Shown here piece by piece: positions 1 to 33,170 of a DNA stretch of 40,161 nucleotides. Source of the DNA: a virus; IMG/VR virus record IMGVR_UViG_3300031251_000058, positions 1 through 40,161 of that record. One strand, 5' to 3'. Within the stretch, counting starts at the first letter, position 1; every line of letters starts with the position of its first letter. The notes under the pieces are model-generated. The model was not told the origin of the DNA. It did not search any database and was given only the letters and a program-made list of their open reading frames with translations. The position numbers and the translations under genes were made by a program.

Positions 1-130
1 CGTACTGGTCAGCCATTACTCGAACTTCCCGGTCGCCGGGTTGTAGACGCGCACCTTGGCGCCGGGAGGCGGCGTGTTGGCCGTCGCTGGGCCGCCTGTG
101 CCGTTTGCCGCGCCGCCATAGATGCCCATC
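1..130. repeat. Terminal direct repeat, left copy
   Basis: Matches 40032-40161 over 130 bases. The first 126 are identical, base 127 differs (c here, a at 40158) and the last three match. The gene ending at 16 and the gene starting at 40047 share a TAATG overlap inside the repeat, so the contig closes into a circle of about 40,031 bp. An assembly overlap of a circular or circularly permuted genome is the simplest reading; a true short terminal repeat cannot be excluded. Confidence 0.93.
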
Positions 131-1611
131 TGGCCAATGAGTGCCTGCTTCCGCTGATCCAGTACGGTTCGCAGCTGCTCCATCGTATCGGCAAAGGCTT
201 TCGGGCTCAGATTCGGGTTGACCAGATCGAGCCCGAGCTTCGTCTTCAGGTCGGACCCTGACCCGATGCCCAGCGCATTGCCCACTTCATCGCCGAGCAA
301 CGTCTGCAATTGCCGATAGTTCGTGACCGTGCGGTTGCCGAGTTGGAACTTCGCTCCGAGGAGGAGCTTGTTGACCGCCGGGATATCGCCGTTCCCGGCT
401 TGATTGGCTAACGCTTCGATCTGATCGATGACCGGATTCAGCGAGTTGATCGCGACGATCCGCTGCCGCACTTGAGGATTCGCGGCCATCTTGAAGCCGA
501 GTTCGTACTGGGCCGGGTCGAATTCCGGGTTGAGCTGTCGCGCCTGGTCGTAGATGCCAAACTTCAGCGCCGCATTGCGGTTGTAGGCTGCGAGCGTGCG
601 GAACTGCGCGAAGGTCATCTTCCCGCTCGCCAGATCCTGCGCGATGCGGAACTCGGGCGTGCCCGGCTTGATTTCGAGAGGCGGCGCGGTCTCGCCCTTC
701 AGGCGCTGGCCTTCAAGGCCGACGCGCTGCTGCTCGAGATCTGTGCGTTTCTTCTCGAGTCCGATACGTTCAGCTTCCTGCTGGCGCGTCAGTTCCTGGT
801 TGCGCTGCGTGCCCTGCTGTTCGGGGGTCAGGCCGTTGACCGTGCCCGCGGCGACTTGCTGCTTCACCGCGGCTTCAGCCTGAAGGCCCGGCAACTGCGC
901 TTCGCGGTTCTTCTGTTCCGCCGCGGCGCTGGCCGCCTGTGCGCGCTTCTCGGTATCCGCCGCGGACAACTGCTTCATGTGCGCGATGGTCTGCGTCACC
1001 GCCGTGGGATCCGGCTGGCCGTCAGGTCCGAGCAGCTGCTGAATCGCGGTCTGTCCGTGATCGGGCGGAATGACGCCGCTCTTGATGCCCTGTCCGATCA
1101 GGGTGGTCAGGAGCGCGGCTTTCGAGGGCGCATCAGGCGCGGTATCCGCCGCGTTGGCGATCGCCGCCATATGGTCGGCTTCCTGCGCGGCAATCTCCCC
1201 TTGCGTCTTTCGGAGCGCCGCGCCCTTGGCCTGGGCCTCCGCAATGCCCGCCTGGATCTTCGGCCATTCACTCGCCGCGGGCGTGTTGGCCACACCAGCC
1301 GCGAGCTTGGTCATGTCGACGTCTCCATTGGGAGACAGTGCGTTCGTATAGGCCGCATTGAGCGCATCCTGTGCGGCTTGCGCGCGCTGTGCCTGCAACA
1401 GCTGCATCTGCCCCTGCTGAAGCTGGAGCCCGCGCAACTGGCGTTCCTGCTGCTGCGCCTGCTCTTGCGCACGGGCCGCGGGAATTCCGGCAATCGTCTG
1501 CCCCAGCGAGGCCAGCGTCCCGCCGAAGATCGCGCCACGGTTCGCCGCGCCTTGCGCCTTGGCCGCGCCGACGTCGCGATAGGCCTGAGCGATGCTTTCG
1601 ACGAGCCCCAT
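16..1611 (-). CDS. Virion protein, probable ejection/internal protein with coiled coil
   Basis: 531 residues, a large late structural protein. Residues about 45-80 and 215-305 are rich in Gln, Ala, Glu and Arg and should form long coiled coils. A globular helical part follows (about 310-490), then a Pro/Gly-rich linker and a short tail ending in GAKVRVYNPATGKFE. Its stop shares TAATG with the 525-residue gene that continues at 40047, and its own ATG shares TAATG with the gene ending at 1611. In P22-type phages the genes after the tail accessory factors usually encode proteins ejected with the DNA (gp7, gp16, gp20 roles); position and composition fit, but no specific homologue is recognised. 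Confidence 0.7.
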   Translation of the reverse strand: MGLVESIAQAYRDVGAAKAQGAANRGAIFGGTLASLGQTIAGIPAARAQEQAQQQERQLRGLQLQQGQMQLLQAQRAQAAQDALNAAYTNALSPNGDVDMTKLAAGVANTPAASEWPKIQAGIAEAQAKGAALRKTQGEIAAQEADHMAAIANAADTAPDAPSKAALLTTLIGQGIKSGVIPPDHGQTAIQQLLGPDGQPDPTAVTQTIAHMKQLSAADTEKRAQAASAAAEQKNREAQLPGLQAEAAVKQQVAAGTVNGLTPEQQGTQRNQELTRQQEAERIGLEKKRTDLEQQRVGLEGQRLKGETAPPLEIKPGTPEFRIAQDLASGKMTFAQFRTLAAYNRNAALKFGIYDQARQLNPEFDPAQYELGFKMAANPQVRQRIVAINSLNPVIDQIEALANQAGNGDIPAVNKLLLGAKFQLGNRTVTNYRQLQTLLGDEVGNALGIGSGSDLKTKLGLDLVNPNLSPKAFADTMEQLRTVLDQRKQALIGQMGIYGGAANGTGGPATANTPPPGAKVRVYNPATGKFE

Positions 1612-2306: not shown

Positions 2307-3450
2307 TGAGCCCTCCGGTGTTCACAAGCGTGGCACCTTTCTGCAGGTAGTAGGCGGCCTGATCCTGTGGGACTTGCTTCGTTTCCCCGGTCGGCGCTTT
2401 CACCGTCACCATCGGCGGCTGCGCGGTCGCCGACGGCGGCGTATAGAGCTGCGCCATGTTCCCACCCGTGCCGTTGACGCTGTTGGCGGCGCTCGCAGGC
2501 GCCGTGCTGGCCGTCGCCGTGCCGGTGGTGGTCGTCGCCGCTGGCGTGGTCGTCGCCGTCGTGGAACTCGGCGTCGTGCTCAGCCCCCAGAGCCCGGCCA
2601 GCTTCCCGACCGCGCCTTGGCCAATGCCCACATACGGGGACAATTGAGCCTGTTTTTGGGCGTAGACCTGCTTCTCAAAGTCCAGCGCGTCCTGCGCCGC
2701 TTTCGCGGAGGCGTCAGAGGCGTTCTGCTGGGCGTTCGCATTGATGAGGCTGCCTGCGACTTGCGTCCCCGCGCCGATGAGCGAGGACCAGAGGCTTGGC
2801 GATGACAGCAGACCGCCGCCCGTCGCCGCCGCCCCGGTGCCCGCCAAGGTTGCCGCCGTTCCAGCCGCGCCGCCCGTGGCGGCCCCTGTAGCCGCACCGC
2901 CGCTCACGAGTCCGCTCGTCGCTGCGGCAGGCGTGGCGACCGCTCCGGTCCCGAGAGTGGTTGATGCCAGCGTGCCGCCGGTGCCCGCCGTTCCCGCCGC
3001 CGTACTCGCACCCGTCGAACCCGCGCCAGCCGCCCCGGCCCCGCCCAGCGCGCCAAGGGCGAGCGCCCCGCCGAGGACGGCCCCGCCAATCAGTACGGTC
3101 GAGCCCCACTCCTGCCACCAGGACGGATCTTTCTTGTCCGCGCCGGTCGGGGTGGGGTTGTAGCCCGCATTCTGCGCGCCCTGCAGCACCGAAATCGTGC
3201 TCGGCTGCAGCTGCGCTTCCATCTGCTTCGACAGCGCCGAACCAGGATGCGCTTGCCGCTCCTGCAAATAGGCCGAGAGGTTCGGATCGATCTGCTTTTG
3301 CGCGACAATGGCCGTCGACCAATTGCCCGAGGCCAGCGACTGCTGCAGCGCCTGCTGCGGATTGGCATACGTCCCCGTCGTCGGGTCGTAGCCTTCGCGT
3401 GTCGTATCGCCGATGGTCGGAGACCCGGCGCCCGCTGATCCTTCCGGCAT
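2299..3450 (-). CDS. Virion protein with glycine/alanine-rich membrane-active segment (ejection-type)
   Basis: 383 residues. A polar N-terminal 110 residues leads to a strongly hydrophobic Gly/Ala segment (about 115-145, GGAVLGGALALGALGG) that could insert in a membrane. A long Ala/Gly/Thr low-complexity stretch follows to about 225, then a helical module (about 230-285) with AQQNASDASAKAAQDALDFE and AQLSPYVGIGQGAVGKL. That last module is a familiar arrangement in DNA-transfer or internal virion proteins of podoviruses. The C-terminus is Thr-rich, then ends with a short charged region. It lies between the tail module and two other ejection-type genes. The role is inferred. Confidence 0.65.
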   Translation of the reverse strand: MPEGSAGAGSPTIGDTTREGYDPTTGTYANPQQALQQSLASGNWSTAIVAQKQIDPNLSAYLQERQAHPGSALSKQMEAQLQPSTISVLQGAQNAGYNPTPTGADKKDPSWWQEWGSTVLIGGAVLGGALALGALGGAGAAGAGSTGASTAAGTAGTGGTLASTTLGTGAVATPAAATSGLVSGGAATGAATGGAAGTAATLAGTGAAATGGGLLSSPSLWSSLIGAGTQVAGSLINANAQQNASDASAKAAQDALDFEKQVYAQKQAQLSPYVGIGQGAVGKLAGLWGLSTTPSSTTATTTPAATTTTGTATASTAPASAANSVNGTGGNMAQLYTPPSATAQPPMVTVKAPTGETKQVPQDQAAYYLQKGATLVNTGGLNG

Positions 3451-3500
3451 TAGCTCGGCCTCATTGTATGCTCATCTGTATACTTTGTATCCATCCCCAT
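3450..3500 (-). CDS. 16-residue micro-ORF between two structural genes
   Basis: The ORF reads MGMDTKYTDEHTMRPS. Its ATG forms TAATG with the stop of the 65-residue gene upstream, and its own TAA forms TAATG with the ATG of the 383-residue gene downstream. This double coupling is the same junction type used by the real genes around it. It may be a translated bridge that passes ribosomes to the next gene rather than a functional peptide. The stretch is locally AT-rich (around GTATAC) and could also hold a weak promoter. Confidence 0.35.
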   Translation of the reverse strand: MGMDTKYTDEHTMRPS

Positions 3501-3697
3501 TAGGATTTCAGCAAGCGCCCCGTCGGCCCGTCAAATTTCGCCGTCGCGCCATCCGTGGCCCCATTCGGCCCCTGCACGGTGACGGCGGCCCAGGCATTCA
3601 GCGCGTTGATCCACGCCCGAGTCATCTTGCCCGTGCGCGGATCAACCACCGGCTGATCGAACGGCAGATAGATGTTCGGCGTCCCGCCCCCCGCCAT
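3500..3697 (-). CDS. Small virion-associated protein
   Basis: 65 residues, with NIYLPFDQPVVDPRTG near the N-terminus and an Ala/Trp helix (AWINALNAWAAV). The PFDQPVVD..TG..T..W signature looks like small conserved proteins encoded after the tail module in podovirus genomes. The function is unknown. The start shares TGATG with the stop of the 511-residue gene and the stop shares TAATG with the micro-ORF, so it is translationally coupled within the late operon. Confidence 0.6.
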   Translation of the reverse strand: MAGGGTPNIYLPFDQPVVDPRTGKMTRAWINALNAWAAVTVQGPNGATDGATAKFDGPTGRLLKS

Positions 3698-5232
3698 CAG
3701 CTCGTCCCCGTCTGGATGTCAATCGTGCATTGCACCCACTGCCAGTTGACCGGATCGCTCACCGTCACTTCCGCGACCCAGTTCCGGCCGCGCCCGAGCC
3801 GCGTCACAAAGACGCGGTGCAGGTAGTCCCCCATCGCCCCGGCGGACATCTGCCGTTCGGCGCCCCAGGTCACGCCGCCATCACGCGAGAGGCGCAACAT
3901 GACGGTCGGATGCTCAATGAGCGCGGTCCCGATCCCGGTCTGCATGATCAGCTCGAGCCGGGAGAGAAACATCTGCTTGTTCTCGTTGAACGGCAACGGG
4001 AACCGGCGCATCCGGCGAATGGGATACGTCACGGTTGTGACCACGGGCGCCTCTCCAATGGCAAACCACGCGACGCTATGATCTGCGGCGCCACTCACGG
4101 TCGTCCAATCAAGGGTAAACGAGTGCGTCGCGTCGTCAAACCCAGTCATCTGCGCCAGAGAGCTAAATGTCGTGGACCCGGCGTTCGGCGTGGCGCAGCG
4201 GATCACATCGGTATCACTCAGGTAGCGTGCCCCCGTGAGCGGATCTTGATTAATGGCGCTTTCCCCCGTCCAGTAGGCCCCTTGGCGTGTGCCATCCGCC
4301 ATGCCGAGGGACCATTCCGCCGCCCCGGCGTTCCAGACGTCACTCGCGGGATCATTGATCGCCGCCAAGAGCACGAATCGATTCTGTATTCCTGTCACAA
4401 TCGTTTGTGGCCCCGTAGTCGTCGGTTGCGTCAAGACCCCAGACGCGCAGGCGCATCCGGAGAAGGCCACGTAGCTGGCCCCGATCGGCCCGGCCGTGAG
4501 ATCGAATCCATCGCTGGGGAAACCTGTGAGGCTTCGTAAATTTGACAACGGGTCTGTCGCCGCAGTAATCGGCAATCGCCTGGAGTTCCCTGAAATAGCG
4601 GTAGCGATGCTCATCACCGCTTGCGCTGGAGGAGCTAATTGCGCGGAACCCCATCCGAGTGATCCCTGCGCGGTGGTGCCTGTGTGCGTGCCGCCAATCG
4701 GAAAAATCTCCGAGGCGAATAGCACGCCAGTCACCGGCGCATGCGTCGTGGGGTAATGGCTCGCAACATTTGAGACGTAGCCATAGGACGCGTCCCCGCC
4801 AGCCAGCACGAGCACGAGATAACTGTCGCCGGATAACACATTCGTCGTGAGCGTGACGTCAAACTCACCGGATCGCACGGCGCTCACATAGCCCAGACGC
4901 CACCACGCCCCCCCGAAGAACGTTTGTGAGTGCATGGAACCGACGGAAAACTGATCACTCACGCCAGCACAATCTTCGCGCCCCCCAGATCCGCTAATAT
5001 TATTCTCCATCCCGAAGCATTGATGGACCGCGCTCGTATCGTCAATCCCGAGGGAGAGACGAGCGCCAGGCGTCGAGGTGCCCACGGCATATTCCAGCGC
5101 GTTCAACCCGCTATTCCCGACAAACAGAAACGTCTCACCGAGAAATGGCGCACCCGTATGATCCACGACGCCCGTGATGGTTTTCACGCCCGTGCCAGCA
5201 GTAATCGTCATGATGACGAGACACGCTTGCAT
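3697..5232 (-). CDS. Adhesin-like module fused to the C-terminal domain of a gp10-like tail accessory factor
   Basis: 511 residues. Residues about 403-511 match the end of P22 gp10-type packaged-DNA stabilisation proteins: PIRRMRRFPLPFNENKQ, LRLSRDGGVTWG, GDYLHRVFVTRLGRGR, then EVTVSDPV. The preceding 400 residues are unlike gp10. They are beta-rich and seem to hold two related units, each ending in a similar strand pair (FDVTLTTNVLSGDSYLVLVLAGG near 125-150 and FTLDWTTVSGAADHSVAWFAIG near 370-395), a pattern seen in tail adhesion domains. The N-terminal gp10 domain is in the separate gene 5607-6728. The start shares TGATG with a short upstream frame. I infer a tail-tip protein with an acquired receptor-binding module. 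The gp10 C-terminus is the surer part. Confidence 0.7.
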   Translation of the reverse strand: MQACLVIMTITAGTGVKTITGVVDHTGAPFLGETFLFVGNSGLNALEYAVGTSTPGARLSLGIDDTSAVHQCFGMENNISGSGGREDCAGVSDQFSVGSMHSQTFFGGAWWRLGYVSAVRSGEFDVTLTTNVLSGDSYLVLVLAGGDASYGYVSNVASHYPTTHAPVTGVLFASEIFPIGGTHTGTTAQGSLGWGSAQLAPPAQAVMSIATAISGNSRRLPITAATDPLSNLRSLTGFPSDGFDLTAGPIGASYVAFSGCACASGVLTQPTTTGPQTIVTGIQNRFVLLAAINDPASDVWNAGAAEWSLGMADGTRQGAYWTGESAINQDPLTGARYLSDTDVIRCATPNAGSTTFSSLAQMTGFDDATHSFTLDWTTVSGAADHSVAWFAIGEAPVVTTVTYPIRRMRRFPLPFNENKQMFLSRLELIMQTGIGTALIEHPTVMLRLSRDGGVTWGAERQMSAGAMGDYLHRVFVTRLGRGRNWVAEVTVSDPVNWQWVQCTIDIQTGTS

Positions 5233-5259
5233 CAGACGATCTGCTCGTCTAAGTAGCTA

Positions 5260-5463
5260 TCATCCATGTGATACAGCGTCTGCGGTCTGTCCATCCGTGA
5301 GCACCCAGCGCACGGTCCCATCGCGATTGTAAATGGCGCCGAGATTGCTATCGAACATGAGCAGGAATGTGCCATCCACCAACACGGCCGCGCCTTCTTG
5401 GACGGGTAAGTCCAAGAGGATCGTCGCACCGTCAGCTGCCGTAATGCAATGGCTCTCGCTCAC
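5260..5463 (-). CDS. Small beta-rich protein inserted in the gp10 locus
   Basis: 67 residues, starting at a GTG that directly follows the TAG of the 47-residue gene in the same frame. Residues 8-55 alternate hydrophobic strands and turns (GATILLDLPVQEGAAVLVDG, FLLMFDSNLGAIYNRDGTVR), suggesting a small beta domain. The frame ends in DAVSHG. A +1 shift a few codons earlier would instead give LYHMDDSYLDEQIV and run to the TGATG joining the next gene. That alternative end resembles the C-terminus of the gp10-like protein upstream. No family is recognised. Confidence 0.5.
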   Translation of the reverse strand: MSESHCITAADGATILLDLPVQEGAAVLVDGTFLLMFDSNLGAIYNRDGTVRWVLTDGQTADAVSHG

Positions 5464-5607
5464 CTAGTCGCCACCCGAAAACAGAAACGAGCCGGGCGGA
5501 TAGGCGCCGCCACTCCCAATCGACGTCCGCGGGCATGCACCACACGTCATGGCCGTAATCACCGGCGGTGGAGGAGGCGGCGGAATGGGTCCAAGCACGT
5601 CCGGCAT
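5464..5607 (-). CDS. Small proline-rich protein in the gp10 locus
   Basis: 47 residues. A run of seven prolines sits at residues 9-15, followed by a Cys/Gly-containing part (TCGACPRTSIGSGG) and SFLFSGGD at the end. The ATG shares TGATG with the stop of the gp10-like N-terminal gene, supporting coupled translation. The TAG stop is followed in frame by the GTG of the 67-residue gene, so readthrough would fuse the two into a 115-residue product. TAG is an ordinary stop elsewhere here (for example the ends of terL and of the gene at 10818), so readthrough is only a possibility. Confidence 0.45.
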   Translation of the reverse strand: MPDVLGPIPPPPPPPVITAMTCGACPRTSIGSGGAYPPGSFLFSGGD

Positions 5608-6728
5608 CAGGCCGCCACGATCTCTTCGTCGAAATAATCATCCGACAGGTGATAAATCGCCCCCGAGAAGCGATCACCGACGAGATGCTTATTGAAACAA
5701 AACACGTGCGAGCCGGCCACATGAGGCATCCACTGACACGTGATGGGATTCCACGTCGCCCATTTGTGCCAGCGATCCATCGTCACGTCATAGACCCAGG
5801 ACCACTGAATGTCGCGCGGCAGAATCAGCACATAGAAGACATGTCCATTCATCTGGTACACCCACGACCGCGCGTCTGTGGGGGTGCTGGCATTCTGAAT
5901 GTCCTGCTCCACGGCGAAGGTGCTGACCCGTTGTGGGGTGTAGCCGTCCGCGCGCCAGATGATGCCTTGCCCGTCGTCGTTCAGGCCCATCCAGATCAGG
6001 GTGTTGTCAATCCGCTGGGGCGTGAAGACGCCTTGCCCGCCATGCTCGATGAAGACGCCCTGCAGCGGCTGGAAGGGGTTATTGACATCGCCCGCGTCGT
6101 ACCAGACTTCCGACGTGCGAAAGCCAATCAGCCAGATTTCGCGGTGATTGCGGATCAGCGACGTGATGTTGTCGGCGGCTTCCGAGCGCTCGGCCGTGTC
6201 GAGCGCATCCCAGGACGTGCCATCTTCCAAGGCGGACCAGGAAAAGCGCCTGGATCCCCCTCCATAGCTGACAATGAAATAGCCGTCCATGAACTCGACT
6301 TGGCGCGCCGGTGCAGGAAAGTCCGGCGCGGTGATCGCGGCCAGCGTATCCGCCGTCAGATCGTAGATGTAACCCAATCCGGCAGAGATGATTAGTATTT
6401 GATGGCCCGCGCTGCCATTGCTCGCCATTGAGACCGGCTGGTCATCCGTGCCCACATCCCAGAGCGGACCGATGGAGTGATCCGCAAAGACTTCGGCAAA
6501 GCTACTGCCCGCGACTGCGAACATCCGATCGTTGATTTCAAATAGCCCACGGACGGGACCCTCTGGAAACTGCACGAACGGATGCATCCCCGGCGTGCGG
6601 ATGCTCCAGAGCGGGCTTTTGCCGTGCCCCGGCGAAGTCGATTCGAGGTATTCATTGATCGCATCGGATGCGCCCGCCTGAATAGAGGCCAGCGTATTCG
6701 CCGGATCAAGAAACGCATCAACAATCAT
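5607..6728 (-). CDS. gp10-like tail accessory factor, N-terminal (propeller-like) part
   Basis: 373 residues. It resembles P22 gp10-type packaged-DNA stabilisation proteins, which plug the portal vertex. Beta-propeller-like repeats run through the chain: NDRMFAVAGSSFAEVF, VEFMDGYFIVSYGGGSRRFSWSALEDG, NHREIWLIGFRTSEVWYDAG, FVYVLI-type strands, then WVYDVTMDRWHKWATW. P22 gp10 is about 470 residues. Here the chain stops after AIYHLSDDYFDEEIVAA, and the missing roughly 110 C-terminal residues lie at the end of the 511-residue gene at 3697-5232, about 1.6 kb downstream. ATGA overlap with the upstream 43-residue gene. Confidence 0.78.
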   Translation of the reverse strand: MIVDAFLDPANTLASIQAGASDAINEYLESTSPGHGKSPLWSIRTPGMHPFVQFPEGPVRGLFEINDRMFAVAGSSFAEVFADHSIGPLWDVGTDDQPVSMASNGSAGHQILIISAGLGYIYDLTADTLAAITAPDFPAPARQVEFMDGYFIVSYGGGSRRFSWSALEDGTSWDALDTAERSEAADNITSLIRNHREIWLIGFRTSEVWYDAGDVNNPFQPLQGVFIEHGGQGVFTPQRIDNTLIWMGLNDDGQGIIWRADGYTPQRVSTFAVEQDIQNASTPTDARSWVYQMNGHVFYVLILPRDIQWSWVYDVTMDRWHKWATWNPITCQWMPHVAGSHVFCFNKHLVGDRFSGAIYHLSDDYFDEEIVAA

Positions 6729-6856
6729 GCGGCCGGGTCTTTCTGGGACGGTACGATCTTCGCGCGCAATTGCTCAAGTTCCGCTTGCAACTCCGCAATC
6801 AGGAAATAGAGTTGGCCGATCTGCTCCCGTAGGATCTGCTCTTTCGTGCGCGCCAT
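6725..6856 (-). CDS. 43-residue coiled-coil protein
   Basis: The protein begins MARTKEQILREQIGQLYFL and continues with a regular Leu/Ile heptad (IAELQAELEQLRAKIV), so it should form a short coiled coil. It ends in a polar tail. TAATG joins it to the fibre-like gene upstream, and its TGA overlaps the ATG of the gp10-like gene (ATGA). It may be a minor virion or assembly component. The family is unknown. Confidence 0.6.
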   Translation of the reverse strand: MARTKEQILREQIGQLYFLIAELQAELEQLRAKIVPSQKDPAA

Positions 6857-8175
6857 TAGGCCACCGACATGACAAGGCCGTTGAGCACCGTGGCGGTCTG
6901 CGTGAGGCCAGCAAAGGTGCCGGAAAACGTGGGGGAGCCGTTTTGCTGGATGATCCCCGCCGTTCCGCCGTTCACGCCCGCTCCCACGTTCAGATTGAGG
7001 TCGCCGCCGTTCTGCGGGGTCATCATGCCGTCATCGAAACCTGCGGAGGCTGCGATGGTAAAGGCGTGGCCATCCCCGGCCGTGGCCAGCGGTGCGCTAA
7101 GCAGGCCCGTCAGATACCAAATCGGGTCGCCGCTGTTCGGGTCAATGTCCAGCGCAAGGACGCTATTGGTCACATCGAAGAGAAAGTAATGCTTATCCGG
7201 AATAGCCACATTGCCGCCGCTCGTGCCGAAAGACCAATCTTGACTGGTCTCATCGGTATGCACTCGAGCGCTGTAGTAAGCGGAGGACGTGTTGGCATCC
7301 GTGGTGGTGCTGACGATATTGACGGCGTCCTTCCCATCGACCTCGCTCTCGACAGAGAATGCGGAATGATCCATTGCGTAACGGATGCCCACGTCTGGGC
7401 GGTAGAACATGAAATAGTTCTTCCCGAATTGATAACGATAAGGAACGCCATTCGCAGGCGTCCAATTCGATCCAAATTCCCCATCGAACCCGAATAAGGC
7501 AAAGTAATCAGTGTGAGTCGAATCACTATCGCCGGGCAGGAGCACCCGCAGCGGGTAGTTGGCGTCACCGGCGTCCACGATCGGCTTCAAGGAAAAGGCA
7601 ATCGCCGCATCCCATCCCGAGACCCCTTCAAATGACAACGAGTCAGTCGTCAGGGCAAATATCTCGGTTTCATCGTCCGTGTCGGTATCGAGCACCGGAA
7701 CGGTGACACCGCCGATGGTTAAATTCGCTGAGGTGCCGGCTGCGGTCATCCCCGGCGTCACCGTCACGATCACGTAATAGCCTGACCCTGGCGTGAGAAC
7801 GATATGCGCGTTGGTCAGATTCGCGGTTTCTGCCGGATCATGCGTAAACGTCAGTGCCGGGCCTTCGGTCCATCCCGTTCCGAGCGTGAAGTCGTCGGTG
7901 ACGAGCTCCTGTCCCTCGCCCCCGTTGAAGGTCGTCGGTCCCTTCCCACCAGCCGTATCAGGCGAGAAGGCCCAACTTCCCGTCAGCGTGTAATCCGCCG
8001 TCACATCAAAGCCCGCAATGACGGCTAATTGGTTACTCCCGTTGACATCAATGGTGGTCCCATCGACGCCGACCGCCAGTTTGTTCCCGCTCGAGCCGTC
8101 GCCAGACAGTGCGCCATTCGTGGCGGTTTCGACGGTGACGCCCGTCGTGACGGTCGGGAAGACGGACGAGGCCAT
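6856..8175 (-). CDS. Fibre-like virion protein
   Basis: 439 residues. The start at 8175 is chosen because it forms TAATG with the upstream stop; the open frame runs on but upstream codons do not look coding. Residues about 10-75 carry fibre-type repeats (ATNGALSGDGSSGNKLAVG, TTIDVNGSNQLAVIAG). A beta-rich middle (about 120-225) has alternating strands such as GYYVIVTVTPGMTAAG. The C-terminal 60 residues (AGDGHAFTIAASAGFDDG, NGGDLNLNVGAG) look like trimeric fibre shaft or head-fibre sequence. It lies between the gp4-like and gp10-like genes. A tail or capsid fibre role is inferred. Confidence 0.6.
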   Translation of the reverse strand: MASSVFPTVTTGVTVETATNGALSGDGSSGNKLAVGVDGTTIDVNGSNQLAVIAGFDVTADYTLTGSWAFSPDTAGGKGPTTFNGGEGQELVTDDFTLGTGWTEGPALTFTHDPAETANLTNAHIVLTPGSGYYVIVTVTPGMTAAGTSANLTIGGVTVPVLDTDTDDETEIFALTTDSLSFEGVSGWDAAIAFSLKPIVDAGDANYPLRVLLPGDSDSTHTDYFALFGFDGEFGSNWTPANGVPYRYQFGKNYFMFYRPDVGIRYAMDHSAFSVESEVDGKDAVNIVSTTTDANTSSAYYSARVHTDETSQDWSFGTSGGNVAIPDKHYFLFDVTNSVLALDIDPNSGDPIWYLTGLLSAPLATAGDGHAFTIAASAGFDDGMMTPQNGGDLNLNVGAGVNGGTAGIIQQNGSPTFSGTFAGLTQTATVLNGLVMSVA

Positions 8176-8513
8176 TACGGCGTCCCCCGCAGCGCCACGC
8201 TGATCGACCCACCGCCGGTAATCGCGCTGGAGATTCGCGCCCGAATGAAGCCATACGCGGCCTGCTGGAGATGCACGGCCAGCGTGACCCCACCCGTGAA
8301 CGAACTCGCGGCGCGGGATTCGATCTGGCTCCACGTCCCCGGATAGTCGGCGCTATCCGCCTCCTCGAGGATGATCGTGCCGCCGCTCGTCGTCCCAGCG
8401 GAGGTGTAATACACCACCCAATTCAGGGCATGCGAGCAGTCGACCGGCACACTCCCGCCCGTGGTCGACCCGGCCGGAATCGTCACCGCGTGAAACGTCG
8501 AGGTGTTCACCAT
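8175..8513 (-). CDS. Small beta-rich virion protein
   Basis: 112 residues, rich in Ser, Thr and Gly, with alternating strands throughout (HAVTIPAGSTTGGSVPVDC, LNWVVYYTSAGTTSGGTIIL, TGGVTLAVHLQQAAYGFIRARI). It resembles small beta-sandwich virion proteins that sit on capsid or tail surfaces. TAATG couples it to both the gp4-like gene upstream and the fibre-like gene downstream. The family is unknown. Confidence 0.55.
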   Translation of the reverse strand: MVNTSTFHAVTIPAGSTTGGSVPVDCSHALNWVVYYTSAGTTSGGTIILEEADSADYPGTWSQIESRAASSFTGGVTLAVHLQQAAYGFIRARISSAITGGGSISVALRGTP

Positions 8514-9274
8514 TAGCTGCCGCCTCCCGTCCCCGTATTGATGTTGTAGCCCGCCCGTCGATCGGCAATCAGTGTGATGGCCGGGTCGATCGGCAGGTCG
8601 GTAATCGTGTAGTTCGCGCGCTTGATGGCCCCGAGCGTCTGGCTCGCCAGCGCGACGACATCGGGAATGGTCGAGAGCGGCACGCCATTCGCCCGCGCCA
8701 TCCGCACGGCGACGTTATACTGCAAGGCTTCCTGATAGCCGTAGGGGAAGTCGTAGGCTGTCGTCAGATCGGCAAAGCCCTGGATGATGTCCCGCCGATA
8801 GATCACGCAACTGTTCTGCGACGTGTTCGGGACCGGCCAGAGATTGATCGTCGCCAAATTGTTGCTGTACGTCGCATTGAAATAGACGTTCGTCCAGAGC
8901 GCGTTGCTCAGATCTTTGATCTGGATCGCTTCCCAGCCGTCATCCGTCAGCACGCCACGCGGAATCTCCACGGGCGGACTGGAGCTGTTCAGCAGCAAGC
9001 CCGCCCCCGTGAGCCCCGCCGGCCGCGACGTATCAAAATCGCCGCCCGGCCCGATGGTATAGGGATTCGATGGCCCGCCCTTCCCTCCAGTCGTGGGAAA
9101 GACCTGCCGCGCGATGAACGGCATCGTCTTCGTCTGCGTGCCCCAGCTGTTCACCAGCGCATTCAGCCGCCGCAGCCCATCTTGCGCCAACGAGGCATCC
9201 AAGGTGTCGCCGAGCCCGATGACGCCAAGATCGGCATAGGCCGCATTGAGGATGGTCTGCGCGTTGACGCTCAC
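8513..9274 (-). CDS. P22 gp4-like head-completion/tail adaptor protein
   Basis: 253 residues with a GTG start (GTGA overlap with the upstream gene). The family pattern is clear. An N-terminal helical region (LNAAYADLGVIGLGDTLDAS, LRRLNALVNSWGTQ) is followed by YTIGPGGDFDTSRP (about 72-85). A strand region then has LWPVPNTSQNSCVIYRR and FADLTTAYDFPYGYQEALQY, followed by C-terminal helices. Proteins of this type bind below the portal and connect the head to the tail machine, where gp10 then attaches, which fits the gp10-like gene two genes downstream. The assignment rests on remembered family motifs. Confidence 0.8.
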   Translation of the reverse strand: MSVNAQTILNAAYADLGVIGLGDTLDASLAQDGLRRLNALVNSWGTQTKTMPFIARQVFPTTGGKGGPSNPYTIGPGGDFDTSRPAGLTGAGLLLNSSSPPVEIPRGVLTDDGWEAIQIKDLSNALWTNVYFNATYSNNLATINLWPVPNTSQNSCVIYRRDIIQGFADLTTAYDFPYGYQEALQYNVAVRMARANGVPLSTIPDVVALASQTLGAIKRANYTITDLPIDPAITLIADRRAGYNINTGTGGGS

Positions 9275-18714: not shown

Positions 18715-18798
18715 GCCCCGGTGCTGGAAAAGGTAGACAGGCCCGCCTTGCACGCGGGTGACTTCCAAGTCGTCCGGGTCCGAACCCCGGCCGGGGCA
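18715..18798 (+). tRNA. Class II tRNA-like gene, leucine-type body with anticodon TGC (Ala)
   Basis: An 84-nt cloverleaf. The acceptor stem GCCCCGG (18715-18721)/CCGGGGC (18791-18797) pairs fully. The D arm is CTG/CAG with GG at 18732-18733. The anticodon stem CCCGC/GCGGG encloses loop CTTGCAC, so the anticodon is TGC at 18749-18751. There is a long variable arm (GACTT/AAGTC, 18760-18771). The T stem CCGGG/CCCGG encloses TCCGAAC, with an unusual C at position 55. The discriminator is A and no CCA is encoded. The D-arm layout (TG, 3 bp, GAA..GGTAGAC) and the long variable arm match bacterial tRNA-Leu, yet the anticodon is alanine's. The G3:U70 pair needed by AlaRS is absent. It lies opposite the non-coding extension of terL. 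Confidence 0.75.
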
Positions 18799-18836
18799 CT
18801 TCTTACCCAACAAGCGACAGAAGGATATTGTACCAG

Positions 18837-19810: not shown

Positions 19811-20145
19811 ACTTCCACGATCCGAATCCCGTATTGCGCTTCGACGTGCTTCTTCGTGCGTTTGTATTCCCGCGTGCGCCAGCCTTTGGCGTCTTCCACG
19901 ATCGGCTGCTGGGTGCGCGTGTCGAGGTACCAAAAATCCGCGCGATAGGTGCCGATCTGCGTCAGCTCGCCCGTGTCCAGATTCACGACCTTCAGCGGAA
20001 ACGCGGGCTGCAGCACCAAGGCTTCGATTTCGCCAGCCCGTTGCAGCAGTCGGAGGTGCGCGTAGCGGTTCGCTTCCCGCTTCGACGCGAACGAGATGCC
20101 CTCCACGACCGTGCGAATGGCGCCGAACTTCGTGCCGCGTCTCAT
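19807..20145 (-). CDS. DUF1064-like nuclease
   Basis: 112 residues, MRRGTKFGAIRTVVEGISFA at the start. The pattern is that of DUF1064 phage proteins with a PD-(D/E)XK-like fold: FASKREANRYAHLRLLQRAG with a conserved Glu (about 19-38), YRADFWYLD (about 68-76), then IVEDAKGWRT (about 82-91) with the Glu/Lys catalytic pair, and KHVEAQYGIRIVEV at the end. Such proteins are thought to act on branched or recombining DNA. It overlaps the methyltransferase stop by ATGA, so both belong to the same DNA-metabolism operon. Confidence 0.7.
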   Translation of the reverse strand: MRRGTKFGAIRTVVEGISFASKREANRYAHLRLLQRAGEIEALVLQPAFPLKVVNLDTGELTQIGTYRADFWYLDTRTQQPIVEDAKGWRTREYKRTKKHVEAQYGIRIVEV

Positions 20146-21227
20146 GCGTCCAGTCCTGGCAGGATCGCCGCCTGATCAGACAGGCTCATATACGCCTCGA
20201 TGAACTCTTGGGCGACTTGGGGCACAATCGCATTCCCGTATCCCCTCAAGCGTCCGACCCGCGCTTCGGTTGTGGCATTCGCGTACGCTGCGCTCGGATC
20301 GCCGCTTGGCACCAACTGACGGGGTAGCCTTGTAACCAGCGGGAATGAGCCGCGTTCAACTGGCCGGGCTTTGCCGTCTCGGCAGGGGAGCCAGTCGCAG
20401 GCGGACCAGAAGCGAGACTCGCCCGCGCAAGGCTCTGGCTGAATTGTCCTGGCCCTTCGATGTGATGATCGCGAGCCTTCGGCGTGGGCCAACTCGCCAG
20501 CTTCGCCGCGTCCGTCAACGTCGTCCCTGCGTGGTGACTCGCCGTCGGCGGGTAGTCCGCGACGCCGCTGCCGGATTGATCCTGCTTCGTCGGAGTGGGC
20601 CATGCCGCCAATGTCGCCGCTTGGCCAAGGTTCAACCCGAAGCCGTTCCCATTCCCGTGCTTCGCTTTGAGTTCCTGCCTTCGCTGCATCCATGTCGAAT
20701 CGCCGTCGTTCTGCGGTCCTGCATTCGGTGTCGGCCACGAACCAGAGCCGCTGTCGGATGTGCGGTGCGCCGACGCTCGCAGCCGGGAGACCACACGGCC
20801 CGACGGCGTAGCCTTCGCGCTCCAGGTCATCGCAAAGACGGTCGAGCCAGCCGTGTCCAATCGCTGCTTCAACCTGCTCACCAAAGACGACGTGAGGGCG
20901 GCACTCCGCGAGGAGCTGGAACCAGACAGGCCAAAGGTCGCGCGGATCGGACCCGCCAGCTTGGGCGCCGGCGCTCGAGAACGGCTGACAGGGGCAACTG
21001 CCGGTCCAGACTTCTCGGCTGTCGGGCCATCCGGCGAGGCGCAGGGCGTACGACCAGCCTCCAACGCCGGCGAAGAAATGACACTGGACGAATCCTCGTA
21101 AGTCGTCGGGTCGAACAAGCTCGATTGCCCGCTCATCAACTTCCCCATCGGCTATCAACCCTGCCGTGATCAACTCGCGCAGCCACGCCGCCGCGAAGGG
21201 ATCACATTCGTTGTAGTAGACGCTCAT
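20142..21227 (-). CDS. DNA C5-cytosine methyltransferase
   Basis: 361 residues from the ATG at 21227 (ATGA with the upstream gene). Motif I is QCHFFAGVGGWSYAL (about 50-63). Motif IV, with the catalytic cysteine, is GSCPCQPFSSAG (about 77-88). Motif VI is a variant, VVFGEQV instead of ENV. Motif VIII is APHIRQRLWFVA (about 153-164). Motif IX/X ends in GYGNAIVPQVAQEFIEA. Residues 168-290 form the low-complexity target-recognition region. It should methylate cytosine in phage DNA, perhaps to evade host restriction; no partner endonuclease is present. A 300-codon ORF lies nested in another frame. Confidence 0.85.
   Translation of the reverse strand: MSVYYNECDPFAAAWLRELITAGLIADGEVDERAIELVRPDDLRGFVQCHFFAGVGGWSYALRLAGWPDSREVWTGSCPCQPFSSAGAQAGGSDPRDLWPVWFQLLAECRPHVVFGEQVEAAIGHGWLDRLCDDLEREGYAVGPCGLPAASVGAPHIRQRLWFVADTECRTAERRRFDMDAAKAGTQSEAREWERLRVEPWPSGDIGGMAHSDEAGSIRQRRRGLPADGESPRRDDVDGRGEAGELAHAEGSRSSHRRARTIQPEPCAGESRFWSACDWLPCRDGKARPVERGSFPLVTRLPRQLVPSGDPSAAYANATTEARVGRLRGYGNAIVPQVAQEFIEAYMSLSDQAAILPGLDA
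20246..21148 (-). CDS. Nested ORF in alternate frame of the methyltransferase (WPTP protein)
   Basis: 300 residues, entirely inside the C5-methyltransferase gene in another minus-strand frame. MSGQSSLFDPTTYEDSSS (start 21148, or 21136 at the internal Met) is followed by a Ser/Ala/Arg-rich part (RSAALTSSLVSRLKQRLDTAG, STVFAMTWSAKATPSGR). Three WPTP motifs then occur (SWPTPNAG, AWPTPTKQ, SWPTPKAR) and the chain closes with LNAAHSRWLQGYPVSWC. The SGQ.SLFD start, repeated WPTP and LN..HSRWL.GYP end recur in annotated phage proteins, so this may be a genuine dual-coding gene. GC-rich shadows can also stay open this long. Confidence 0.4.
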   Translation of the reverse strand: MGKLMSGQSSLFDPTTYEDSSSVISSPALEAGRTPCASPDGPTAEKSGPAVAPVSRSRAPAPKLAGPIRATFGLSGSSSSRSAALTSSLVSRLKQRLDTAGSTVFAMTWSAKATPSGRVVSRLRASAHRTSDSGSGSWPTPNAGPQNDGDSTWMQRRQELKAKHGNGNGFGLNLGQAATLAAWPTPTKQDQSGSGVADYPPTASHHAGTTLTDAAKLASWPTPKARDHHIEGPGQFSQSLARASLASGPPATGSPAETAKPGQLNAAHSRWLQGYPVSWCQAAIRAQRTRMPQPKRGSDA

Positions 21228-21574
21228 TTGAGGATCGCCGCCTGCTGCACCCGTCGGCCGTCCCAATGCGGGCCTTCCGGGCCTCGCTGATCCTTCCGAT
21301 ACTGATTCGTGCAGGCTTTGCACCAGCGCTGATGTCCGTCGATGGCATCGGCGTCCAGCGCGAAGTCTTCGATGACGCGCACCTGCTCGCAGCGGGAACA
21401 GGCTTTCTCACTGCGCCGAATCTGTCGCGGCGCGCGAAACCGCAACACCCGCTGGAGCGCCTGATGGATGTGCTTCGCGCGTTCCAGGTTGGGATTCCGC
21501 GCGAGTTGATCCGCAAAGTATCCTTCCGCTTCGGCGGCGGCGAGGTAGAGTGCGCGCTGCTGGGAAGGGGTCAT
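21224..21574 (-). CDS. Zinc-binding hypothetical protein
   Basis: 116 residues from MTPSQQRALYLAAAEAEGYF, chosen over the in-frame extension because AAAGG lies about 7 nt upstream. The N-terminal 60 residues are helical. The C-terminal half has CSRCEQVRVIEDF and RWCKACTNQYRKDQ, two CxxC knuckles of the kind found in HNH-type or zinc-ribbon phage proteins. No HNH histidine pattern is evident. It overlaps the methyltransferase start by ATGA. Confidence 0.6.
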   Translation of the reverse strand: MTPSQQRALYLAAAEAEGYFADQLARNPNLERAKHIHQALQRVLRFRAPRQIRRSEKACSRCEQVRVIEDFALDADAIDGHQRWCKACTNQYRKDQRGPEGPHWDGRRVQQAAILK

Positions 21575-30768: not shown

Positions 30769-31016
30769 AGGGCACGCTCCAGCACGTCATGCAGCTCTTT
30801 CACGTAGCCCGGTGACAACTCTCCGCCGCTCAGTAACGTGGCTTCCGCGTGGCAGCGATCCGCGACCAACTGACAACTGCGCGAGTAGGCTTCGAGGAAC
30901 TTCCCGAGTTCACTCGGCGTCTGACAGGCACTCGCGCCCCGTCGGAGATCCCCGGCCAGTTGATCGACCTGCTGGATCAAGGCAACAGGGAGCGGGGCGA
31001 GAGAGGCGCGGATCAT
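30765..31016 (-). CDS. Helical hypothetical protein whose start is duplicated upstream
   Basis: 83 residues (MIRASLAPLPVALIQQVDQL, then CQTPSELGKFLEAYSRSCQL and YVKELHDVLERAL). It is a small helical bundle. The first ten residues and the bases around its ATG recur at 31841, on the other side of the nonapeptide-repeat gene. No known family. Confidence 0.55.
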   Translation of the reverse strand: MIRASLAPLPVALIQQVDQLAGDLRRGASACQTPSELGKFLEAYSRSCQLVADRCHAEATLLSGGELSPGYVKELHDVLERAL

Positions 31017-31017
31017 G
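30990..31017. repeat. Direct repeat flanking the nonapeptide gene, copy 1
   Basis: About 28-30 bp containing gaggcgcggatcatga, matching 31813-31843 with a few mismatches. It spans the start of the 83-residue gene. Confidence 0.65.
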
Positions 31018-31759
31018 ATCGCACCGCCGCTTTCGCTGAGGCATCGAGCACCGCCGAGCCCCCGACGTCGCGGATGGTCGCCGAGCCCCAGACGTCGCTG
31101 ATGGTCGCCGAGCCCCCGACGCCGCGGATGGTCGCCGAGCCCCCGACGCCGCGGATGGTCGCCGAGCCCCCGACGCCGCTGATGGTCGCCGAGCCCCAGA
31201 CGTCGCTGATGGTCGCCGAGTCCCTGACGCCGCTGATGGTCGCCGAGTCCCTGACGTCGCTGATGGTCGCCGAGTCCCTGACGCCGCGGATGGTCGCCGA
31301 GCCCCCGACGCCGCGGATGGTCGCCGAGCCCCAGACGTCGCTGATGGTCGCCGAGTCCCTGACGCCGCTGATGGTCGCCGAGTCCTGCACTCGCACGATA
31401 CGACCCGAGCGCACGTCTCTGATCTTGGCCGTCCCGGCGATGATCCAGCAGCCATCCACGATCAGCTCATGCTCGCCGGCGGTCAGGATCATGCGGCTGG
31501 CGCGTGCGTGGAGCGTGGATTCGGCTTGGGCCGCCACATCCTCCCACCACATCGGTAGGGTTGGCTCATCTATGCGCCATTTCCACGTCGAAGCGTCGGC
31601 CCAATCGACGGGCACGAGTTCCACTTTCGCAAAGTGATTGATATGCGCATCGGTATCCGGCAACTGGAAATAGCGCACCAAGTCTGAGTGCGAATCCAAC
31701 ATCGGATGCGTCAAGACATCGCCGTTGCGCACAACTAACGCCGAGAGGAAATTACACAT
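31013..31759 (-). CDS. Nonapeptide-repeat beta-helix protein
   Basis: 248 residues. The first 110 residues form a conserved domain of unknown role: MCNFLSALVVRNGDVLTHPM, LVRYFQLPDTDAHINHFAKV and ASRMILTAGEHELIVDGCWI. Twelve tandem 9-residue units (consensus xSATIxxVx) follow at about 126-233 and should build a right-handed beta-helix stacked on that domain. Only a few columns vary (S/R, G/D, R/W/G). It ends with a short Ala-rich tail. It overlaps the 29-residue ORF upstream by 8 nt. Confidence 0.7.
   Translation of the reverse strand: MCNFLSALVVRNGDVLTHPMLDSHSDLVRYFQLPDTDAHINHFAKVELVPVDWADASTWKWRIDEPTLPMWWEDVAAQAESTLHARASRMILTAGEHELIVDGCWIIAGTAKIRDVRSGRIVRVQDSATISGVRDSATISDVWGSATIRGVGGSATIRGVRDSATISDVRDSATISGVRDSATISDVWGSATISGVGGSATIRGVGGSATIRGVGGSATISDVWGSATIRDVGGSAVLDASAKAAVRS
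31061..31384. repeat. Twelve tandem 27-bp coding repeats
   Basis: The 27-bp unit encodes the nine-residue beta-helix repeat (core gatggtcgccgag on the plus strand). Units differ at only a few positions, giving a high chance of recombination between them and of length change. There are no spacers, so it is not a CRISPR array. Confidence 0.9.
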
Positions 31760-32083: not shown

Positions 32084-32361
32084 GCGGCCCCCTTTCCACC
32101 AGCCCGCACCGCCGCCGCCAGCCGCCGCTTGAGCAACGCCTCAGACTCCGCCCGCGAGGATCCAAAGGGCCGATCAAAGGGCACGACCTTAGCGGAACGA
32201 AAGCCTTTCGACGCAGGCAATGACATGGACCGCGCGGGCGTCGGCGGCAGCAGGTCATGCGCTTCGGCTTTCACATCGCGCACAAACTGCTGAGGGGACG
32301 GCTCGATCCAGCAGATCAGCGTGACGATGGCCACGATCAGGAGAATGGCGACGGCGGTCAC
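32080..32361 (-). CDS. Small membrane-anchored protein
   Basis: 93 residues starting at a GTG in a GTGA overlap. One transmembrane segment, [17 protein letters not shown] (about 3-19), follows the start immediately. The rest is polar ([40 protein letters not shown]). It is likely an inner-membrane protein with a cytoplasmic or periplasmic tail. The function is unknown. Early position suggests host takeover or exclusion rather than lysis. Confidence 0.55.
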
Positions 32362-33170
32362 TTCGCACCGCCAAATGCCGCGCGCATCCGACTCAGCCAG
32401 TCGCTCGCCCACTCGTGCGCGAGCTTCGCCGCCTGCGACGTTGCCGGCGTGTCGCCGATCTGAATGCCGAGAAAGAACCGCTCAATCAGGCGCGACGAAT
32501 TCGGCCGCAGGTTCGGCACGTCGGTGTAGAGGCAGCCGCGCGCGTTCGCGATCGTCCCCACGAGACACGCGCACTCGCCCGAATAGGTCGATCCGTTCAC
32601 GCGCCCGGCTTCCAGCGCCGCGATCAGCGCCGGCACTTCAGCCGGTACGGCACTGAGCACGGCCCATAGGTCGTCACGGATCGGCGTCAGGTCGGCGTCC
32701 GTCAAGTTGGCGTCCGTCAGGTCGGCGCGCGTCAGGTCGGCGCCCGTCAGGTCGGCGCCCGTCAGGTCGGCGTCCGTCAGGTTGGCGCGCGTCAGGTCGG
32801 CGCGCGTCAGGTCGGCGTCCGTCAGGTCGGCGCCCGTCAGGTTGGCGCGCGTCAGGTCGGCGCCCGTCAGGTTGGCGTCCGTCAGGTCGGCGCCCGTCAG
32901 GTCGGCGTCCGTCAGGTTGGCGCGCGTCAGGTCGGCGTCCGTCAGGTTGGCGCGCGTCAGGTCGGCGCCCGTCAGGTTGGCGCGCGTCAGGTCGGCGCCC
33001 GTCAGGTTGGCGTCCGTCAGGTCGGCGCCCGTCAGGTTGGCGCGCGCGGCTAACGCCGCATGGAGCGCATCCCTGACTGTTTCTGCTGGGCCTTCCCATA
33101 GCACGGCGCCGGTCCAGCGATGCAGAATGCGGCGGATTGTCACGTTCGGGGTATCCTTGTCGTCAGCCAT
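32358..33170 (-). CDS. Pentapeptide-repeat protein
   Basis: 270 residues. An N-terminal 43-residue part ([20 protein letters not shown]) precedes 24 perfect pentapeptides of the form A(N/D)LT(G/D/R) at residues 44-163, about six turns of a right-handed quadrilateral beta-helix. The C-terminal 107 residues form a separate helical domain with [20 protein letters not shown] and [19 protein letters not shown]. Some pentapeptide proteins mimic DNA and shield gyrase (Qnr, MfpA); whether this one does is unknown. The ribosome site lies in a hairpin loop. Confidence 0.8.
32682..33041. repeat. Twenty-four tandem 15-bp coding repeats
   Basis: Units of the type gtcaggtcggcgccc (plus strand) encode the pentapeptides; two columns vary. 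The unit has no stops in several frames, which makes long spurious ORFs here on both strands. Confidence 0.9.

Follow-up and report, generated by a model that had tools for sequence, protein, structure and literature searches.

A tail-hub gene of the P22 gp10 type divided around an exchangeable, putatively receptor-binding module in a clade of uncultured viruses

The window, by which we mean the whole stretch of DNA analysed (IMG/VR virus record IMGVR_UViG_3300031251_000058, 40,161 bases), carries a set of P22-type genes, all on the minus strand (Table 1). The tail-plug protein gp10, which is essential in P22, is normally a single polypeptide. In the window, it is represented by two ORFs, 1.59 kb apart and in different frames, with stops between them. 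The first, gp10N, matched phrog_578 at positions 11-364 of 486 (E = 1.3e-70). Residues 405-509 of the second product, P0002, matched positions 369-472 (E = 1.4e-15), and only both genes together reached a full-length match. Alignment with intact gp10 proteins showed that the pieces abut in the loop YxDxGxPIxRxRR: gp10N, whose C-terminal end is SDDYFDEEIVAA, stops at IYHLSDDYFDEEIVAA and gp10C resumes with PIRRMRRFPLPF, where the intact protein reads YFTDAGAPIARIRACPHL.

Table 1 Features of the split gp10 locus, its neighbourhood and the second breaks in relatives (window coordinates unless a locus is named; -, minus strand)
Feature	Coordinates	Evidence or remark
Portal	window (-)	PF16510, E 3e-100
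Major head protein	window (-)	phrog_283
DNA-ejection protein	window (-)	phrog_598
Adaptor-like protein, upstream of gp10N	8513..9274 (-)	phrog_12985, E 4e-27; head-tail adaptor phrog_637, E 2e-4
gp10N (P0001, 373 aa): N-terminal strand region and beta-propeller, P22 gp10-type tail hub	5607..6728 (-)	phrog_578
47-codon ORF	5464..5607 (-)	overlaps gp10N stop (TGATG)
67-codon ORF	5260..5463 (-)	GTG start
Diverged second copy of gp10N 3' end, LYHMDDSYLDEQIV	5235..5276 (-)	contains 11-codon ORF
11-codon ORF	5267-5232 (-)	overlaps P0002 start (TGATG)
P0002 (511 aa): variable module and gp10C	5232-3697 (-)	
Variable beta-rich, adhesin-like module, P0002 residues 1-403	4024..5232 (-)	hypervariability in relatives; all-beta model
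gp10C, C-terminal (platform) domain of gp10, fused behind module	3697..4023 (-)	phrog_578; model vs P22 gp10
65-aa gene after gp10, synteny marker in split and intact relatives	3500..3697 (-)	tblastn
Second break inside gp10C, L125	11268-11310	
Second break inside gp10C, L126	12206-12248	
Second break inside gp10C, L178	11716-11760	
Second break inside gp10C, L127	10663-10700	

The complementary profile matches and the alignment bore out the original prediction that gp10 is split in two and that the pieces jointly equal P22 gp10, nearly the whole length of phrog_578 being covered. An adhesin-like module does lie between the propeller and the C-terminal domain and is fused to the latter, as had been proposed. 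Some details required correction. The interval assigned to the split gene (4026-6728) contained the break, but gp10C falls outside it, and the C-terminal piece has 108 residues counted from PIRR, not 109. The two similar units described in the beta-rich region were weakly supported: hhalign gave P = 0.0015 (P = 0.42-0.86 in ten column-shuffled controls), but an HH probability of only 6.7%.

The two halves are separated by 374 nt in the window. This gap is filled by three small ORFs, in the order gp10N, 47 codons, 67 codons, 11 codons and P0002, joined by start/stop overlaps. No relatives of the 47-codon and 67-codon ORFs were found. The 14 residues preceding P0002, LYHMDDSYLDEQIV, aligned with the gp10N end IYHLSDDYFDEEIV with a score of 53; none of 1500 Markov shuffles scored above 44. 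The module borders of 14 relatives showed no such copy; both the small ORFs and the duplication were seen on the window contig only. On this one contig, the copy is probably a recombination scar at the module border.

The predicted structures place the break at a domain boundary. The model of the intact sister from locus L160 (pLDDT 85) matched P22 gp10 with Z = 38.0 over 445 residues and the SU10 nozzle with Z = 24-25. Ordinary propeller proteins matched only residues about 45-366 of this model, their matches ending at 364-367, and the split position in L160 numbering is about 371-375. In the models, the break thus falls at the exit from the propeller to the C-terminal platform domain. Residues 398-507 of the P0002 model matched P22 gp10 (Z = 9.9, rmsd 2.5, 104 residues, chain range 2..472), in line with the earlier claim that the P0002 C-terminus is the gp10 domain, and the L160 and P0002 models between them display the beta-propeller plus platform fold. 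Matches to 7sg7, 9nwi, 9vyg, 9jg6, 7z4b and 9efk likewise began at residue 2 or 3. In the model, the place of the N-terminal strand, which in intact hubs closes the platform, seems to be taken by a strand at P0002 residues 399-403, just upstream of gp10C. The C-terminal platform of T7 gp12 is in contact with the adaptor and incorporates N-terminal strands; it is connected to the propeller by the fiber dock, which lies at the outer surface (PMC6702177). Given this layout and a break at the propeller exit, the module would occupy the fiber-dock position, between propeller end and platform, but on a chain separate from the propeller.

When IMG/VR was scanned with P0001 and its closer relatives, and one genome-bin contig and the window were added, we obtained 59 split loci (41 nonredundant), all with the same break; P0002 alone as query found no relative in IMG/VR. 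The gp10N end lay 3-12 residues past the profile end in 40 of the 41 nonredundant loci, the exception being L150, in which gp10N carries a 326-residue extension with a Ser-rich end. Both in L150 (7989-10091) and in L156 (1653-3086), gp10N runs on into an extension with terminal Ser-rich repeats. A stop/start overlap motif was present at the gp10N stop in 33 of the 41. The variable part ahead of gp10C was roughly 250-760 residues long in most split loci, with gp10C free or nearly free in some, and the gap between the halves reached 3.1 kb in relatives. Wherever the contig was long enough, gp10C was found downstream of gp10N.

All split rows formed one clade in the gp10N maximum-likelihood tree (support 100/100), and the enlarged gp10N tree set showed one change of state, from intact to split. 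Intact genes lay outside the split clade, the nearest being L160, L170 and L034/L036, whereas gp10N identity within the clade fell below 40%. Most simply, the gene broke once, deep in the clade, and appears to have stayed broken while the clade diverged. Relatives of the 65-aa gene were found by tblastn behind the split gp10C in L016, L142 and L152 and directly behind the intact gp10 in L110, which indicates that the module sits inside gp10. An insertion into the tail-plug gene had been proposed: the location of the module agrees with this, but an event in this particular phage does not, as the tree needs a single deep split. The proposal would have been contradicted if relatives had both genes and an intact homologue existed nowhere; the relatives do share the two genes, yet intact homologues exist outside the clade and are common (98 loci). 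Two of the intact genes carry in-frame insertions: about 200 aa near residue 120 in L005 (8999-11071) and about 70 aa inside gp10C in L172 (7992-9740).

Among annotated phages, 44 records had gp10N, and those inspected carry gp10 as one CDS. Four candidates for a split gp10 in known phages (phiAX1, ctNMl277, EBPR podovirus 1 and ct2os315) lack a clean C-terminal match, yet each has a single CDS and was rejected. No description of a split gp10 or nozzle was found in the open-access literature searched. One clade member was found on a 60.7-kb contig belonging to a genome bin from the phylum of Acidicapsa (Acidobacteriota). No clear host genes were seen beside it on that contig, and Acidobacteriota is a candidate host phylum only.

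Both halves of gp10 were far more conserved than the region between them. Median dN/dS from 27 close pairs was 0.08 for gp10N and 0.067 for gp10C at equal dS (0.83 and 0.82), whereas the module showed a dN of 0.47 and a dS of 1.29. Judged by these ratios, both halves are under strong purifying selection. With a dS above that of the flanks, many modules seem to predate the sequences around them and to have been replaced by recombination rather than merely evolving fast. Identities in gp10N, module and gp10C were 92%, 49% (37-73) and 90% among seven close phages (L131-L140), 98%, 47% and 93% for L026/L027, 93%, 36% and 86% for L157/L158/L171, and 83%, 14% and 73% for L020/L023. Forty modules fell into 10 families. 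The window module grouped with those of L158, L157, L171, L026 and others, phages with no more than about 50% gp10N identity to the window, and not with that of L013, the nearest gp10N relative (57.8%). From these comparisons, the module appears to have been replaced repeatedly since the split, with both gp10 halves kept. A hypervariable, exchanged module between conserved flanks is also the pattern of receptor-binding proteins.

The arrangement of gp10C varied among the split relatives. L016 has a gp10C fusion and also a free, complete gp10C (TGATG start, MADTRRIRTFLLP), and L026/L027 have a short gp10C gene in addition to the fusion. Two different modules in tandem, each with its own gp10C, were found in L157/L158/L171. 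In L125, L126, L178 and L127, a second break occurs inside gp10C: the module protein ends in FPIRRLRRWMP (L125, L126, L178) or RRFAL (L127) before the stop codon, and the rest restarts by an ATGA overlap (MSALFDLNQW...). Free gp10C genes and second breaks together make covalent linkage seem dispensable at more than one point in these hubs. Extra, unassigned ORFs of 55-350 aa were observed between gp10N and the gp10C fusion in L016 (8116-10033), L019 (4305-5306), L020 (8071-8895) and L128 (9116-9283); the border just behind gp10N resembles a general insertion site for additional genes.

The P0002 model was nearly all beta and of mediocre confidence (mean pLDDT 70). No Pfam or PHROG family covered the window module, and no match to it was found in annotated phages. 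In a structure search with the whole P0002 model, the matches were taken up by the gp10C part. Recognizable domains were present in some relatives. The L161 protein starts with a Laminin_G_3 (concanavalin A-like lectin) domain (32 bits, cut-off 27.6), and in L013 and L167 gp10C is preceded by DUF5979 or prealbumin-like domains; similar matches in L014, L018, L021 and L159 were below cut-off. A PHROG family of unknown function, phrog_19101 (595 aa), resembled an adhesin-gp10C protein, but its last 70 positions also matched intact gp10s.

We consider it likely that these genes encode a tail hub split into two noncovalently joined parts, the platform half of which anchors an exchangeable receptor-binding protein. 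gp10N would supply the N-terminal strand region and the channel-lining beta-propeller. gp10C would supply the C-terminal platform domain, which contacts the adaptor ring in better-studied nozzles, and would be made as the C-terminal tail of a variable, putative receptor-binding (adhesin-like) protein. The two proteins, encoded by adjacent or nearly adjacent genes, mostly with stop/start overlaps, would be produced by coupled translation and would reassemble noncovalently into the hub. Up to six variable regions would then lie on the outside where propeller meets platform, the site of the fiber dock in T7. With the variable part off the propeller chain, recombination at its two borders with gp10 could exchange or duplicate it while the plug stayed undisturbed. 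For the split itself, the conservation of both halves and the swapping of modules, the evidence from sequence is strong. Homology and the pattern of variation point to receptor binding by the module, and they argue in the same way for reassembly of gp10N with gp10C and for a surface position of the module. Hub and adaptor proteins that touch the receptor have a precedent in phage OWB (PMC7241545). Two points speak against this reading: the window module shows no recognizable receptor-binding family, and its anchor is at the opposite end from that of usual phage receptor-binding proteins.

The closest known systems are the hub proteins P22 gp10, Sf6 gp8 and those of Pam1 and Pan3 (phrog_578, head closure Hc3; PDB 8eap, 8u10, 7sg7, 7eeq and 9vyg). 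The likeness extends to the profile over both halves, the gene neighbourhood and the fold, with Z = 33-38 for the intact sister L160 and Z = 8-10 for gp10C. Those hubs are one chain, whereas the split clade has two genes, the C-terminal half bearing 400 variable residues. The T7 gp12 nozzle shares an attachment point for host recognition at the propeller-platform junction (PMC6702177). However, the T7 fiber dock and the SU10 short-fiber dock loop are a same-chain domain or loop that binds a separate fiber (PMC6702177, PMC9509320), whereas in the split clade the platform domain is part of the variable protein itself. Receptor-binding proteins of modular build (tailspikes and fibers) also combine a conserved anchor with a variable part swapped between close phages; their anchor is N-terminal, whereas here it is C-terminal and a piece of the hub protein itself. 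Phage PhiGT1 offers another case of a podovirus lineage with two genes for one tail-hub component, but its dual tubeA genes are two adaptor paralogs and not a hub protein broken in two (PMC10386132).

The same observations can be read differently. The freed gp10C might be a general docking tag, with P0002 a fiber or spike bound through it and the propeller half plugging the tail alone. Several gp10C copies per phage (L016, L026, L157, L158 and L171) and free gp10C fit this reading, as does the closing of the platform sheet by P0002's own strand in the model; given that strand, gp10C might fold alone and only dock. However, every sufficiently long contig retains gp10C, its sequence is constrained to the same degree as gp10N, and these loci showed no intact gp10 next to the split genes, so we regard a docking tag as unlikely. 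That the module serves some purpose other than receptor binding, as a structural or decoration domain of the tail or as a target of host immunity-like pressure, is more doubtful again. Some modules do carry general prealbumin-like domains that are not receptor-specific, but host-range regions usually vary in just this way, the whole region being exchanged between close phages and the flanks conserved, and one module has a ConA-like lectin domain.

Rejoining of the halves into one gp10 chain by an intron, read-through or frameshift is very improbable, despite the tight stop/start overlaps in many members. The gaps (374 nt in the window and up to 3.1 kb in relatives) contain stops, gp10C genes have their own start, some standing free, and no group I or II intron RNA matched in Rfam at E up to 1 in 3400-6900; on these grounds such joining was largely ruled out. 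Hardly credible at all is an assembly or sequencing artefact. The window is a single metagenomic record, and the small ORFs between its halves are unique to it, but the same break in 41 nonredundant records, and on the contig of the Acidobacteriota-phylum genome bin, rules out a chimera as the source of the split.

If the noncovalent split hub with its exchangeable platform-borne module is correct, then in a large group of uncultured bacterial viruses with short tails, host-recognition parts seem to change hands through exchange of a piece of the tail hub itself. A naturally split gp10 clade with the outer half most variable would put receptor binding in the structure that gates DNA release, and the long-standing question of how receptor contact opens the podovirus tail would become testable. 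More tentatively, and with rather less than even expectation, the hub could be a natural split-protein socket, with any protein that bears a gp10C tag being incorporated as part of the hexameric tail plug. In phages that have a second gp10C-tagged gene or a free gp10C, mixed hubs with several receptor-binding modules would then form, and receptor contact would act directly on the DNA gate. The clade offers a natural two-part protein and anchor for studying the exchange of receptor-binding modules, and a likely identity for one class of metagenomic proteins, un-annotated so far, whose C-terminus is a gp10 domain.

Other features were observed elsewhere in the window. A 300-aa ORF with SWPTP motifs (20246-21148, minus strand) overlaps nearly the whole of a C5 DNA methylase gene (PF00145, E = 3e-15; 20142-21323, minus strand) in another frame of the same strand, possibly a case of dual coding. 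ARAGORN called a tRNA-Ala (tgc) at 18715-18799 (plus strand), inside the 5' region of the terminase ORF and on the opposite strand. A pair of minus-strand genes (32358-33170 and 31013-31759) comprises a pentapeptide-repeat protein (PF00805, E = 3e-72) and an adjoining protein made of TISGVRDSATI-type repeats, to which no Pfam family matched.
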